A stretch of 40,548 nucleotides of DNA, taken from assembly GCA_022798795.1 (NCBI GenBank), contig JAAWNF010000005.1:1-40548 (forward strand), in the 5' to 3' direction. The position numbers and the translations under genes were made by a program. Within the stretch, counting starts at the first letter, position 1; each line of letters starts with the position of its first letter. The notes under the pieces are model-generated. The model ran no database searches, had not been told where the DNA came from, and saw nothing but the letters and a program-made list of their open reading frames with translations. Shown one piece after another: positions 1,440-28,139 of this stretch. The DNA comes from Bacilli bacterium. Its GTDB lineage: Bacteria > Bacillota_I > Bacilli_A > RF39 > UBA660.

Positions 1440-2471
1440 ATGAAACATGAAGTGGATTTAAAAAATTATACAATTCGTACAGATTTGGCACTTGAATCAA
1501 TAGAGAATAATAGTATTGAAAAGGTAAAACAGGAATTTGAAACGATAAATGAAGTTAAAGTCACAACAACATACTTGGATGAACAGAATGGAAAAAAAAT
1601 AGCTAAAAAATCAGGAATTTATATTACTATTGAATTTGAAGATGTTACAGACCATGATAATTTATTAAATGTAAAAGAAATTTTTTCAAATAAATTAAAA
1701 TTTATATTAGAAAAGGAGCACATTAAAGAAAATGACATGGGATTAATTATTGGTTTAGGAAATGAAAATTCTACTCCTGATGCCTTAGGACCTTTAACAA
1801 TAGATAAAATTATTGTAACAAATCCACTTTATTTGTATGGAGAACTAGAAGAAGGATATCGAAGAGTGTGTGCAATTAGTCCTGGAGTTACTGGTGAAAC
1901 AGGAATAGAAACAAGTGATTTTATTAAATATATGATTGATTGTGTAAAACCACAATTTGTAATTGTAATAGATGCTTTGGCGAGTGGTTCTATTGAAAGA
2001 GTCAATCGAACAATACAAATGACAGATACAGGAATAGCACCTGGTAGTGGTATAGGAAACAAAAGAAAAGAAGTGAGCAAAGAGTTGTATGGAATTCCTG
2101 TTATTGCAATTGGAATTCCAACAGTAGTAGATGCGATTACTATTGTAGCAGATACAATAAAGTATATGCAAAAGCAATATACATATTCAAAGCAGAATCA
2201 TAATCAACCAAAGAATAAACTTATCCTTTCTTATCAATCAAATTATTTGAAAGCAAAGATAGAAGAAAATAAAGAAGATAATAAACAATTATTAGGACTT
2301 GTTGGCGGATTAGATGATGTTGAAATTAAACAGTTATTATTTGAGGTATTAACACCTATTGGCTATAATTTTATGGTGACTCCGAAAGAAGTTGATTTTG
2401 TTATGGAAAAATTGAGTGAGGTAATTGGAGAGGGCATTAATCTTGCATTGCATAAAGCAATAAAAGATTGA
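1440..2471 (+). CDS. gpr: Germination protease (GPR endopeptidase)
   Basis: A 343-residue spore protease of family A25. GPR is made as a zymogen in the forespore and degrades small acid-soluble spore proteins at germination. The N-terminus MKHEVDLKNYTIRTDLALE contains the conserved (I/V)RTDLA motif around the propeptide cleavage region. The core motifs GLGNENSTPDALGP, SPGVTGETGIET, VIDALAS and GIAPGSGIGNKR are intact. The start at 1440 follows GGGTGATAAG; an in-frame ATG 12 nt upstream lacks a site. It heads a tightly spaced run of genes to 5893. It is strong evidence that the source organism forms endospores. Confidence 0.95.
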   Translation: MKHEVDLKNYTIRTDLALESIENNSIEKVKQEFETINEVKVTTTYLDEQNGKKIAKKSGIYITIEFEDVTDHDNLLNVKEIFSNKLKFILEKEHIKENDMGLIIGLGNENSTPDALGPLTIDKIIVTNPLYLYGELEEGYRRVCAISPGVTGETGIETSDFIKYMIDCVKPQFVIVIDALASGSIERVNRTIQMTDTGIAPGSGIGNKRKEVSKELYGIPVIAIGIPTVVDAITIVADTIKYMQKQYTYSKQNHNQPKNKLILSYQSNYLKAKIEENKEDNKQLLGLVGGLDDVEIKQLLFEVLTPIGYNFMVTPKEVDFVMEKLSEVIGEGINLALHKAIKD

Positions 2472-2524
2472 CTTATGTTTGTTTTGTGATAGAATATATT
2501 TTTAATAAAGAGGCGATGATTAGT

Positions 2525-3313
2525 GTGGAAAAATTTTTATATGATATTTTAAATGAAACAGAAAAAGCATCTATTAAGCATACAGAATTTATTAGTACTA
2601 TAATATTAACTGAATTAGAACAAACAATGCATTTTTCTTTTGAACATCGTAAAATTATTACTCCAACAGCTTTTATGGTTTCGCTATTGACTGATGTAAA
2701 TTTTTCATGTCGATTTTTATTAATTCAATTGTTAGAAAAATATCATGTAAATGAAAGAGATTTGTTGTTATATTTAACAACCAATTTGTATTCTTTAACA
2801 CCTGGGACAATAGAAGAAAAAAATCATATTGCAACATTATTATCTTTGCCTTATATTGAAACAATTTCCTCAGAAAAAAATTGCTATATTATAAGGACAA
2901 AATATGGGACAATAGAAATGCAGGTTTTAGAGGATTGGTTAAAAAAACATAAAATTTGTTTTGAACCAAAAAAATTTAATGGATTTTGTCATTATGCTGT
3001 AGAAAGCTTAGCACCATTATTGCCTGATGATTATATTACTACTAGTGAATTTTCTAATTTATTTGGTGGAATTTATTATCATTCTTACTATACATTGAAA
3101 AAAGGTGGAGTAATAGACCCTGCTCGAAATCTTTTTTATCCTGGAACTTGTTTTGAAGAAATTTTTAAACCGAATGTATTATTGCAATATCCTGCTTCTG
3201 AGTTACAAGAAAGATATCAAAACTATTTAAAAACGGCTACTCAAAAGGATTTAAATCTTTTGGATTCAGTATGTGCATTAGCAATGGAACAAAAAAGGAA
3301 AGTGTTAAAATGA
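2525..3313 (+). CDS. Unrecognised protein with possible Cys/His/Asp active site, paralogue 1
   Basis: A 262-residue protein I cannot assign to a named family. Its C-terminal half has Cys155-His156 (FNGFCHYAVESLAP), His186 (GGIYYHSYYTL) and Asp198 (GGVIDPARN) in the order and spacing of papain-fold or transglutaminase-like enzymes; this is an inference from pattern only. The N-terminal half is helical and leucine-rich with no motif I know. It shares this architecture with the genes at 4411 and 5174. The GTG start at 2525 follows AGAGGCGAT by 7 nt; ATG 2516 sits too close to that site. It is 53 bp after gpr, and its stop overlaps the next start by 4 nt, suggesting translational coupling. Confidence 0.7.
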   Translation: MEKFLYDILNETEKASIKHTEFISTIILTELEQTMHFSFEHRKIITPTAFMVSLLTDVNFSCRFLLIQLLEKYHVNERDLLLYLTTNLYSLTPGTIEEKNHIATLLSLPYIETISSEKNCYIIRTKYGTIEMQVLEDWLKKHKICFEPKKFNGFCHYAVESLAPLLPDDYITTSEFSNLFGGIYYHSYYTLKKGGVIDPARNLFYPGTCFEEIFKPNVLLQYPASELQERYQNYLKTATQKDLNLLDSVCALAMEQKRKVLK

Positions 3314-24618: not shown

Positions 24619-25698
24619 ATGGAAAATAATAATCATAAAAGAGTTTATTTGAGAAAGGATGGACGATACTTTATTAAATATAAGAAAGGAATCAATCAAA
24701 ATGGAAAAACAGAGTATGGATTTATTTATGCCAAAAGTCCAGAAGAGGTATTAGAAAAGTATAAGAGCACATTGTCAAAAATATCTACAATTGATAAATC
24801 CTTATTTAGTGGTGATATATATCATTGGCTTAAAAGTGTTAAAATATCTTGTAAAAAATCATCTTATTCTAATTATGAATATATGGTATATGCACATCTT
24901 ATACCAACATTTGGAAAGTATAAGAGAAAACAAATTAATAAAAATATTATTAATGAATTTACAGAAAAAATGTTAAATCGAGGAATGGCTCCAAAAACAG
25001 TAAAGGATATATTGGTTATATTAAAACAAATTTTAAATTATCATAATATGAATATTTGTGTGACAATGCCAAAGGTTCCTAAAAAGGAAATTCAAATACT
25101 TACAAAAGAACATCAATTATTGTTAGAACAAAGATTAAGTCATTGTATAGCAGAAGAAGATATCGGTGTATTTTTATGTTTGTATACAGGTATTAGAATT
25201 GGTGAATTATGTGGTCTAAAGTGGGAAAACATTGATTTAGAGAATAATATTATTCGAATTGAAAAAACTTTAATACGGGTTAAAAATGATGATAAAAATA
25301 AAAAATCTAAAACGGTTGTAATATTAGATGACCCAAAATCTGCTTCTTCGATAAGAAACATTCCGATTCCAACCTTTTTGGTTTCCAAGTTGAATACTTT
25401 AAAAAAAGAAGAATCATGTTTTTTTTTAACAGGTACCAAAAATTTTATTGAACCAAGAAGTTATACAAATCATTATAAAAATATTATGAAATCACTAAAT
25501 ATAGATGAATATAATTTTCATGCATTAAGACATACATTTGCAACTAGATGTATAGAAAAAGGCTGTGACCCAAAAACTTTAAGTGAAATTCTTGGCCATT
25601 CAAATGTAAAAATTACATTAGATAGATATGTTCATCCAAGTTTTGATAACAAAGTTAGATTGATGAATAATTTAAATCCTATGTGTCATTTTAATTAA
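24619..25698 (+). CDS. Tyrosine recombinase (integrase/invertase)
   Basis: A 359-residue phage-integrase-family recombinase. Order: AP2-like arm-binding N-terminus (about 8-50), SAM-like core-binding domain (about 62-145), catalytic domain with Arg193 (TGIRIGELCGLKW), a lysine near 240, His301-x-x-Arg304 (HALRHTFATR), His327 (LGHSNV) and nucleophile Tyr337 (TLDRYVHPS). It makes covalent 3'-phosphotyrosine intermediates at paired core sites with short spacers. It lies 46 bp before the first of two inverted-repeat-bounded promoter segments, so a DNA invertase role is inferred. The arm-binding domain is more usual in integrases of mobile elements, so it may derive from one. Start follows CGAGAGGAG. 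Confidence 0.9.
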   Translation: MENNNHKRVYLRKDGRYFIKYKKGINQNGKTEYGFIYAKSPEEVLEKYKSTLSKISTIDKSLFSGDIYHWLKSVKISCKKSSYSNYEYMVYAHLIPTFGKYKRKQINKNIINEFTEKMLNRGMAPKTVKDILVILKQILNYHNMNICVTMPKVPKKEIQILTKEHQLLLEQRLSHCIAEEDIGVFLCLYTGIRIGELCGLKWENIDLENNIIRIEKTLIRVKNDDKNKKSKTVVILDDPKSASSIRNIPIPTFLVSKLNTLKKEESCFFLTGTKNFIEPRSYTNHYKNIMKSLNIDEYNFHALRHTFATRCIEKGCDPKTLSEILGHSNVKITLDRYVHPSFDNKVRLMNNLNPMCHFN

Positions 25699-25744: not shown

Positions 25745-25761
25745 CAAAGCTTTTCACTTTG
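25745..25761 (+). repeat. Left inverted repeat of segment 1
   Basis: CAAAG-CTTTTCA-CTTTG; flanking arm bases extend the internal symmetry to 10 bp with one mismatch. It is the exact reverse complement of 25899-25915. Confidence 0.85.
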
Positions 25762-25798
25762 AGATTAAAAGACTTGTTGCATTCACAACTTAGACGTT

Positions 25799-25827
25799 AT
25801 TTTATTATAAAAAATAATATTTGTCAA
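25799..25827 (-). promoter_or_regulatory. Leftward promoter inside invertible segment 1
   Basis: On the minus strand, TTGACA (25822-25827), 17-bp spacer and TAAAAT (25799-25804). It points toward the recombinase terminator, away from the 25939 gene. After inversion it would face that gene with the start of transcription about 30 bp before the right repeat. Confidence 0.7.
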
Positions 25828-25898
25828 ATTTAACCATTTTTAAATAGTAGTCATTATTTTTAAAACATTTATATTTTCTTTTTTTATCAGAATTTTCA

Positions 25899-25915
25899 CA
25901 AAGTGAAAAGCTTTG
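25899..25915 (-). repeat. Right inverted repeat of segment 1
   Basis: CAAAG-TGAAAAG-CTTTG on the plus strand, with perfect 10-bp arms. It ends 23 bp before the start codon of the 25939 gene. Confidence 0.85.
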
Positions 25916-25938: not shown

Positions 25939-27072
25939 ATGGAAAAGACAACAAAAAAATATGTGGAGTATTTATATCCTGGTTTTATTGTATCAGAAAG
26001 TAGTAGTATGGAAATTGAACACAGTGACCCAATGAAAGTGGAAGTGAAAGAACATGTAATTGGGTTTCGATTCTATGAAAAAGATTTTATATATTCTGAT
26101 GGACAACAATTTGAGGGACAGATAAAGAATATGACAAATTGGTTTTATATTGGAAAAAGGCTTACTTTAGCCGAAGTGAAAAGTCGTTTTAATGGAATGC
26201 CAAAATATAAAACTTTAATTGATAATATGGAATGTAATGAAATATCATCTGTATGTATGACTGAATATGGTAATTTTATGCCAATGGAAAAAGAGGATAT
26301 TACATTAAATGAATATGTGACTGAACATGGTAAAGAAGCCAATGCTTTAAAAATGTTTCAAGCATTGAAAAAACATTTAGGAAAAAGTGTTTCTTATCGG
26401 GGATGGTGGTATGGAGTAGCTCAAAATGAAACAGGAATATTAAAAGATGTTAATTTTTTTACAAATGTAGAAATTGGTTGTCATGGAATACCATTTGTTG
26501 GATATGGTTCTGCTATTTCATCTATTATCTTGGATGAAACAGGAGAAGAATTATACTCTAATCCACATATTGAATATGGATATGATAGAAGAAGCCCAGA
26601 AAAAATTGAAGAATCAAGAAGAATGTTTTTTGGAGATACAATTGTGGATAAACAGAGAAGTCGTAGAATGAAAGCAGAAGCTATTAGAAAGCAAAAACAA
26701 GAACAAGCTGATTTAGAGGCTAAGAAAAAGAAATATATATTTATGAGAGAGGGGCTAGCTTTTGTTAAAAGTGAAGAGGCAGAAAATTGGATGCAATATG
26801 TAGATAATAACACAAATGATGCCTATTCTTGTTGTATTGTAGAAGCCACTTTATTATGCTTGAAACAATTACAAGAAGGGGCTACTTGTGAAGTGGTAGA
26901 AAAAGTGTATGTCGAAATGGGATTAAGTGGATATATGGCTGGAGCAGTTTCTAGCATGATTGCTCGCTTTAGTACAAGAGGAAGTGAATTTAAACAATAC
27001 TGGAATAAAAAATTTGGTATTTCAGGAGAAGAAAAAGGTACTGTAAATCCAGCTATATTAGTTTTATCATAA
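25939..27072 (+). CDS. Unrecognised 377-residue protein under switch 1
   Basis: I do not recognise a family. No signal peptide or membrane helix is seen. The N-terminal half (YVEYLYPGFIVSES, GFRFYEKDFIYSDGQQFEG, NWFYIGKRLTLAEVKSRF) looks beta-rich; a basic coiled-coil-like stretch (RSRRMKAEAIRKQKQEQADLE, about 233-262) follows, then a helical C-terminus with two adjacent cysteines (YSCCIVEATLLCLKQL). AAGGGGG precedes the start. The only credible promoter nearby is the inverted one in segment 1, so the gene should be silent in the assembled orientation. A cytoplasmic effector or regulator is possible but unsupported. Confidence 0.7.
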   Translation: MEKTTKKYVEYLYPGFIVSESSSMEIEHSDPMKVEVKEHVIGFRFYEKDFIYSDGQQFEGQIKNMTNWFYIGKRLTLAEVKSRFNGMPKYKTLIDNMECNEISSVCMTEYGNFMPMEKEDITLNEYVTEHGKEANALKMFQALKKHLGKSVSYRGWWYGVAQNETGILKDVNFFTNVEIGCHGIPFVGYGSAISSIILDETGEELYSNPHIEYGYDRRSPEKIEESRRMFFGDTIVDKQRSRRMKAEAIRKQKQEQADLEAKKKKYIFMREGLAFVKSEEAENWMQYVDNNTNDAYSCCIVEATLLCLKQLQEGATCEVVEKVYVEMGLSGYMAGAVSSMIARFSTRGSEFKQYWNKKFGISGEEKGTVNPAILVLS

Positions 27073-27078
27073 AAAATA

Positions 27079-27116
27079 AAAAACTCACAAAGTGTTTTTC
27101 TTTGAGAGTTTTTTTT
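27079..27116 (+). terminator. Terminator of the 25939 gene built on a recombinase-like core site
   Basis: AAACTC-A-CAAAG (to 27092), 7-nt loop TGTTTTT, CTTTG-A-GAG (27100-27108), then T residues. The CAAAG-N7-CTTTG core is the same as in the invertible segments but with a different spacer. Confidence 0.7.
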
Positions 27117-27121
27117 CTTAT

Positions 27122-27138
27122 AGTAAAAGACTTTATGA
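27122..27138 (-). repeat. Left inverted repeat of segment 2
   Basis: Exact reverse complement of 27259-27275. Spacer TAAAAGA on the plus strand. Confidence 0.85.
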
Positions 27139-27157
27139 TTTTCCTTGAGTGCTTCTT

Positions 27158-27185
27158 ATATTATCACTTTTTTTATTTTTGTCAA
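27158..27185 (-). promoter_or_regulatory. Leftward promoter inside invertible segment 2
   Basis: On the minus strand, TTGACA (27180-27185), 16-bp spacer and TAATAT (27158-27163). It faces the terminator of the 25939 gene, away from the 27303-28145 pair. Inversion would turn it toward them. Confidence 0.7.
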
Positions 27186-27258
27186 ATTTTGTTATAAATG
27201 AATTTTTAAAAGTCAAAAATGGGAATAATTATTTATATGCTAATCCTTAAAAAAGATT

Positions 27259-27275
27259 TCATAAAGTCTTTTACT
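27259..27275 (+). repeat. Right inverted repeat of segment 2
   Basis: TCATAAAG-TCTTTTA then CT; flanked by TTGAGAA, giving arms ATAAAG / CTTTGAG. It ends 27 bp before the start of the 27303 gene. Confidence 0.85.
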
Positions 27276-27302
27276 TTGAGAATTGTTTAAGGGGGTTGGA
27301 TT

Positions 27303-28139
27303 ATGAGTCAGGAAAGAAATTTTAAAGAAAATGAACGAAAGAGGTTAGAACAAAAAAAATTTTTAATTCAGATGAAAAAAGAAATGAATGATTTAGAAAA
27401 CAAAATAAAATTTTCAAGATTTTTAAATTTAAAAATTGCCACTGTAAGAAATTTAAAAATATCATTACGTGCTATGCAGTTAGTTGCACCTTATGTATTG
27501 ACAGCTGGGTTAATAGCAGGTGGATTTAAGTTGGTTGGAGGTTGTCCATTCTATCGTGATGTGCGACAACAAAATTTGAATATAATGAAAGAATTTGATA
27601 ATTTAGGAAATATCAGATATGAAGAACAATATAGTGAATATTCTGGTGCTTCAAATATATTATATTTTTATGGAAAATGGGAAAAATCAAATGATGGTTT
27701 TTACACTAGAACTGTGGAAAAGTATAAGCTAAAAGAATTGACAGAAGAAGAAATCATAGAATTATTTGGGAAAGAGAAAATGACTTTACAAGATATATTG
27801 GGTTCTCCTCTTTCTTCATTTCGAGAATCTAATAATAATGTTGCTGATGAAGATATAGAAAAAGATAATTATTTTCAAGCAATTATTTACCAAGAAAATA
27901 AAGAAGATTATATTTTAGTGAGGGAATCTGTTTCTGATAATATTTTAATCACCATATTATATATTTGTATTACTGCTCTAGCAGAACTTTTGCCATTATA
28001 TTTTAGAACTGAACTTTCAAGTTTTGATTTTGGAAATTGCGTATCAAGTATTAAAGAAAGATATCAACCAGTTGATATTCCAACTTTAACCAAAAAATTA
28101 AGAATCAAAAGGGAAAATTATGATAGGTTAACGAGGTAA
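27303..28139 (+). CDS. Unrecognised two-helix membrane protein under switch 2
   Basis: A 278-residue protein. A charged coiled-coil-like N-terminus (1-45) leads to one membrane helix (about 58-80, LVAPYVLTAGLIAGGFKLVGG), a domain of about 130 residues beginning CPFYRDVRQ, and a second helix (about 212-234, LITILYICITALAELLPLYF), with a short basic cytoplasmic tail. With two helices the middle domain would be outside the cell. No family recognised. AAGGGGGTTGG precedes the start. Five bases separate it from the amidoligase gene, so the two are almost certainly cotranscribed, and the only promoter candidate is the inverted one in segment 2. Confidence 0.7.
   Translation: MSQERNFKENERKRLEQKKFLIQMKKEMNDLENKIKFSRFLNLKIATVRNLKISLRAMQLVAPYVLTAGLIAGGFKLVGGCPFYRDVRQQNLNIMKEFDNLGNIRYEEQYSEYSGASNILYFYGKWEKSNDGFYTRTVEKYKLKELTEEEIIELFGKEKMTLQDILGSPLSSFRESNNNVADEDIEKDNYFQAIIYQENKEDYILVRESVSDNILITILYICITALAELLPLYFRTELSSFDFGNCVSSIKERYQPVDIPTLTKKLRIKRENYDRLTR

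Follow-up and report, generated by a model that had tools for sequence, protein, structure and literature searches.

In Bacteroides fragilis, the tyrosine recombinase Tsr19 (BF2766) was described to invert a promoter immediately downstream of its own gene as well as a distant one (IVp-I and IVp-II), and the serine recombinase Mpi of the same species serves 13 regions (PMC4747536). For Clostridioides difficile, seven invertible sequences were reported, with cmr, flg, cwpV, and pdcB among the switches and RecV serving at least flg and cmr; the pdcB switch has a length of 174 bp, imperfect repeats of 19 bp, and an invertible promoter (PMC9286219). The PhaseFinderDC study grouped gut invertons by their repeat motif and tied them to groups of nearby tyrosine invertases, inverton group 139, for example, being paired with invertase group 35 in Clostridia (PMC11892184). 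Pairs of an amidoligase and a gamma-glutamyl cyclotransferase, in turn, were predicted to modify cell walls in a phage (Iyer et al. 2009, quoted in PMC11253131).

The locus analyzed here resembles Tsr19, as that system is characterized in the cited work, in its mode of action, namely a tyrosine recombinase with local and distant promoter targets: the recombinase gene adjoins the switches, its candidate catalytic residues are kept, and the same arm motif was found at distant loci. In comparison, the Tsr19 system is presented there with Bacteroides promoters and polysaccharide or vesicle cargo, whereas our locus comes from a low-GC, spore-gene-bearing Bacilli-type MAG, has arm cores of the form AAAG-N7-CTTT, and its switches precede amidoligase, Tad4-like, AAA+DUF7192, and sigma-like genes. 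With C. difficile, as far as described in the report cited above, it shares the presence of multiple short invertible elements in a single Gram-positive genome, some of them with an invertible promoter, but the cargo differs and the recombinase gene lies directly beside two of its presumed targets. As in the PhaseFinderDC data, where the taxa are those of a defined gut community, switches sharing a motif are linked to a nearby tyrosine invertase. The amidoligase/cyclotransferase modules, as quoted, have Amidoligase_2 in common with our locus, and one switched operon (locus L080) also encodes a gamma-glutamyl cyclotransferase (GGACT) protein; the operon in the window, however, is without a cyclotransferase, and its amidoligase lies behind a putatively invertible promoter.

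The window, i.e., the whole stretch of DNA that was analyzed (40,548 bases), represents one complete contig (C20) of a 1.36-Mb genome of 91 contigs (G000). It encodes, in this order, a tyrosine recombinase, switch 1, a gene designated A, switch 2, a membrane protein, and an amidoligase (Table 1). Judging from the sequence, we hold with good confidence that switch 2 is an inverton-type site-specific DNA inversion switch, which is flipped most likely by the tyrosine recombinase of this locus and would control the operon of membrane protein and amidoligase.

Table 1. Features of the recombinase and amidoligase locus in the window
Feature	Position	Strand	Remarks
Tyrosine recombinase, 359 aa, likely invertase	24619..25698	+	PF00589 95 bits, PF14659; clade with switches in 16/16 loci
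Switch 1	25745..25915		Arms 25745-25761 and 25899-25915, spacer CTTTTCA, leftward promoter TTGACA-17-TAAAAT (OFF)
Gene A, 377 aa, behind switch 1	25939..27072	+	C-terminal Tad4-like domain, below Pfam cut-off
Likely bidirectional terminator, hairpin flanked by A/T tracts	27078..27114		RNA fold z -2.9 (+), -4.4 (-)
Switch 2 left arm	27120..27138	+	Core ATAG-TAAAAGA-CTTT 27120-27134; exact repeat 27122-27138
Switch 2 candidate invertible promoter	27158..27185	-	TTGACA (27185-27180), 16 nt, TAATAT (27163-27158); TG precedes -10
Switch 2 right arm	27259..27277	+	Core AAAG-TCTTTTA-CTTT 27263-27277; exact repeat 27259-27275
Ribosome-binding site AGGGGG	27290..27295	+	Just beyond switch 2 right arm; read from sequence
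Membrane protein, 278 aa, first gene of the switched operon	27303..28139	+	No Pfam family; relatives in 5 other switched operons
Amidoligase_2 enzyme, 344 aa	28145..29179	+	PF12224 54.3 bits, cut-off 22

In the recombinase, R193, H301, R304, H327, and Y337, which we take to be the catalytic residues, are invariant in six aligned sequences. The amidoligase motif GGHIH(I/V)G is kept in all six sequences compared and presumably represents the active-site motif (GGHIHxG) of these enzymes, while the relatives of the membrane protein, found in five other switched operons, are 23-81% identical. Gene A reached 22.7 bits with Tad4 (PF25186), a Thoeris inhibitor according to the Pfam naming, and thus stayed below the cut-off of 25, which two orthologues (25.3 in L117, 71.1 in L120) passed. 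Padloc gave no match for the cargo of switches 1 and 2, and the predicted structures of gene A and the membrane protein are of low confidence (mean pLDDT of 57 and 52, respectively). The hairpin downstream of gene A is absent from the list of a consensus terminator scan. On the minus strand, the left arm of switch 1 and its flank (25766-25740) are terminator-like for an OFF-state transcript, so this arm may double as a terminator.

Switch 2 contains an exact inverted repeat of 17 nt, AGTAAAAGACTTTATGA at 27122-27138 being the reverse complement of 27259-27275. Inverted repeats of at least 17 nt at a distance of 60-420 nt occurred in 0 of 100 first-order Markov shuffles of the window, and the real window has two, belonging to switches 1 and 2. 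The segment of about 150 bases lying between the matching inverted arms carries a TTGACA-16-TAATAT promoter on the minus strand, which points left, away from the operon starting at 27303, i.e., the switch is OFF in the assembly. Both switches have the 12-mer AAATTTGACAAA around the -35 region in common and differ in the spacers of their arm cores (TCTTTTA/TAAAAGA in switch 2, CTTTTCA/TGAAAAG in switch 1). The exact reverse complementarity, the outward-facing promoter, the common -35 region, and the spacer difference had all been claimed in the preliminary description and were recovered in our analysis. In the left arm, the outer half-site (ATAG) is degenerate, identically so in the orthologues of the related genomes G001 and G002. 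With short perfect inverted repeats, an internal promoter, and a ribosome-binding site plus gene just outside one arm, switch 2 displays sequence features of an inverton, its arm anatomy and promoter placement being directly observed.

Concerning its working, the recombinase would bind the paired AAAG/CTTT half-sites in each arm, strand exchange would occur inside the 7-nt spacer common to both arms, and the segment in between would then flip. Paired half-sites with a 7-nt spacer are typical of tyrosine recombinases. In the assembled orientation, the promoter is predicted to fire away from the operon and its transcript to end at the hairpin between gene A and switch 2, which would stop transcripts of gene A as well as this leftward OFF-state transcript. 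After inversion, the promoter would lie a short distance upstream of the ribosome-binding site of the operon and drive transcription of membrane protein and amidoligase (ON). At least four switches of this genome are probably targets of this recombinase, namely the adjoining switches 1 and 2 and two on other contigs.

Natural inversion was observed for two sister switches. In G108 and G382, two genomes of the same genus, the switch adjoining the recombinase has flanks that are 99% identical on both sides, and the identity of its interior rises from 33% in direct to 96% in inverted orientation; its promoter (TTGACT-17-TATAAT) faces the gene in G108 and points away from it in G382. The second case is switch 3 of the window's genome, where contig C19 ends 83 bases past the left arm (spacer TAAGATA) and the matching right arm is located at the start of contig C43, before a gene of 348 aa. 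Compared with G001 and G002, the interior part on C19 revealed identities of 0.75 and 0.80 when inverted versus 0.53 and 0.49 in direct orientation across the entire piece, whose first 54 bases are highly similar. The arms are kept, and G000 and G001 agree in the position of the upstream gene and terminator, the comparison with G002 spanning only 37 bases upstream. With the interior being inverted, the promoter of switch 3 faces its gene in G001 and G002 and points away from it in G000 (OFF). The evidence for inversion between genomes is therefore direct for this switch set, as represented by sister switches, and since these were found flipped both ways in related genomes, we read switch 2 as reversible as well, i.e., very probably as an on/off switch whose general type is known and whose cargo is unusual.

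The layout from the recombinase to the amidoligase, including both switches and gene A, is kept in G001 and G002 and extends over two contigs in G003, while in G004 a single switch lies directly before the membrane protein and amidoligase genes. Gene A of G001 is split into two reading frames (L024, 8864-10007) behind an OFF switch 1. In G003, switch 2 is interrupted by an insertion-sequence-like element, the inverted ends of which are similar (L025 5200-5256 and L169 1-60, at the end of C93 and the start of C80); the end of this element matches 17 places in the genome, mostly contig ends. Among the four orthologues of switch 2, an ON copy was not found, the switch being intact and OFF in G000, G001, and G002 and OFF in both halves in G003. 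The preliminary description had proposed an OFF switch controlling membrane protein and amidoligase, of which the OFF promoter, its position before both genes, and its membership in a set of several switches stood, while flipping of switch 2 itself did not appear in its orthologues (four of four OFF). Because of this uniform state, we infer its own flipping by analogy with the sister switches; the identity of the invertase and the control of expression are likewise what we infer.

The same uniformity would also suit a former invertible switch that is now locked OFF, its degenerate left half-site making it a decayed, non-inverting remnant. The outer left half-site ATAG, common to G000, G001, and G002, might indeed slow or prevent recombination, and in G003 the segment is split by the insertion element. 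We nevertheless regard such a locked state as unlikely: spacer and inner half of the two arms still match exactly, over 17, 14, and 17 nt in three genomes, the spacer changes between G000 and G001/G002 affect both arms in parallel, and the operon behind the switch stays open and conserved.

Out of 385 genomes of the same order that were searched, 67 hold an integrase at E <= 1e-50, and in a tree of 49 integrases, including those of the window and of L120, the 16 with arm-bearing loci form one clade with a support of 100/99. In our scan, a switch was defined by two 15-nt cores with at most two mismatches in total to AAAG/CTTT, exactly complementary spacers, and 95-189 nt in between. Under one scan definition, such matched-spacer arm pairs were observed at 16 of 16 clade loci versus 0 of 33 loci of related integrases (384,362 bp); the switch of L082 (G141) was detected with a looser arm definition, which was likewise applied to the 33 controls. 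Including remote loci, 31 switches were found in total (window, L024-L028, L076-L084, L120, L153-L159). When 14 carrier genomes were searched for the pattern irrespective of spacer match, 28 AAAG-N7-CTTT pairs were obtained, 18 of them with exactly complementary spacers as judged by eye, and 28 genomes in which the recombinase has no close relative yielded 14 pairs, none with matching spacers (gaps of 105-135 only; also by eye). On viral contigs, the recombinase search revealed only two distant relatives (28-30% identity), and a search for exact arms gave none. Among 30 amidoligase loci scanned out of 55 matches, with flanks of up to 1.5 kb, those outside the recombinase clade showed no AAAG-N7-CTTT switch.

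This distribution bears on whether the arms might be inverted by another recombinase, a serine invertase or an Xer-like protein encoded elsewhere, with the neighboring integrase being incidental. The genome does carry resolvase-family (serine) genes on C69, C46, and C65, the three matches exceeding the Pfam cut-off and one being short, and it encodes two Xer-like tyrosine recombinases (C7, C57). However, arms with paired half-sites and a 7-nt spacer fit tyrosine recombinases, and at 16 loci their occurrence coincides with a single integrase clade, related integrases having no arms, so that we consider this explanation very improbable. A non-inverting repeat with a permanent regulatory or structural role, as a terminator, an operator, or binding sites of an integrase, is hardly credible, even with the terminator-like left arm of switch 1 and the constant orientation among the switch 2 orthologues, given the natural inversions of the same element type in G108/G382 and in switch 3.

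Within the switch family, inversion by the clade recombinase remains our preferred reading. A crude promoter score assigned 18 of the 31 switches as OFF and six as ON; with seven undecided, the promoter reading is weak for some of them. A strong ribosome-binding site and an open reading frame follow nearly every switch. The core-to-core segments have lengths of 121-131 (19 switches), 137-140 (11), or 163 (one), with none in between, and their best period is 12.0 bp, 0 of 5000 null draws being as strong, with paralogy as a possible contributor. A geometric constraint on looping during recombination may underlie these classes, which are spaced by about 12 bp. L120 contains three switches within 4.8 kb; at its positions 2295-3030, a switch before a minus-strand gene of about 196 aa adjoins switch 1.

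At distant loci of the window's genome, the pattern search found the same arm motif on C19, C43, and C51, and remote switches were found in G001, G002, and G004 as well. On C51, a right arm (spacer TAATATA) lies about 200 bases from the contig start and is followed by genes for an AAA ATPase and a DUF7192 protein, and both this switch and the one divided between C19 and C43 have intact counterparts in G001 and G002. Two of the four switches of the window's genome thus lie at contig ends, which could be taken as a sign of mixed orientation; since the same type of break is caused in G003 by the multicopy insertion-like element, contig breaks were not counted as evidence.

The same types of cargo recur beside the recombinase and at remote switches. 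Amidoligase operons lie behind switches in the window and in L024, L026, L027, L080, and L083, and AAA+DUF7192 pairs in L041 and, judging by similar N-termini and lengths, also in L154, L155, and L076. Pairs of TPR and AbiEi-like proteins (L028, L081) and metallophosphoesterases (L077, L157) were found as well. Sigma-70-like proteins of 459-509 aa with long C-terminal parts are encoded behind switches in L028 (9412-10941), L084 (6946-8328), and L159 (1784-3163), so some switches may control regulators.

A further aspect of these arms is their spacers, which, by the scan definition, are identical between the two arms of each switch. Blocking of strand exchange by spacer mismatch is a property of tyrosine recombinases, and it is plausible that different spacers isolate the switches from cross-recombination, as the preliminary description had proposed. 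Orthogonality of the spacers as a selected trait was considered and dropped: 0 of 34 within-genome spacer pairs are identical, which is no better than chance at about 0.6 expected from position frequencies, and seven pairs differ by one base. In G168 (L076, gene strand, C17 17700-18010), three arms are arranged in tandem. The middle one combines the inner half of a switch 1 right arm with the spacer and interior of another switch and diverges from L120 exactly at the spacer. Its sequence suggests that two switches once recombined with each other and that gene A was lost; exchange across switches thus seems to have taken place during evolution. Tentatively, the arms might be viewed as an address system, in which one recombinase flips promoters and, over evolutionary time, swaps switch-plus-operon cassettes arm-to-arm in an integron-like manner, private 7-nt spacers limiting everyday cross-talk. 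We think this rather doubtful, and put it forward because the close sister recombinases of G168 and L120 have different cargo behind switch 1, the junction diverges at the start of the spacer, cargo types recur near and remote, and the segment lengths are discrete.

Switch 2 works, in our interpretation, like known invertons; what is new is a clade of recombinases with their set of switches in uncultured Bacilli of the gut type, together with the unusual cargo. In the literature collection searched, no paper linked amidoligases with phase variation, and the one match for amidoligase and invertible concerns, as it is presented there, a prophage and not such a switch. In the window, an amidoligase operon, with a predicted peptide- or wall-modifying enzyme, appears to be placed under reversible on/off control. 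For an enzyme of this type, a role in excluding other phages was predicted in one phage (quoted in PMC11253131). Should phage sensitivity differ between ON and OFF cells, the function of these amidoligases could be tested in this way.
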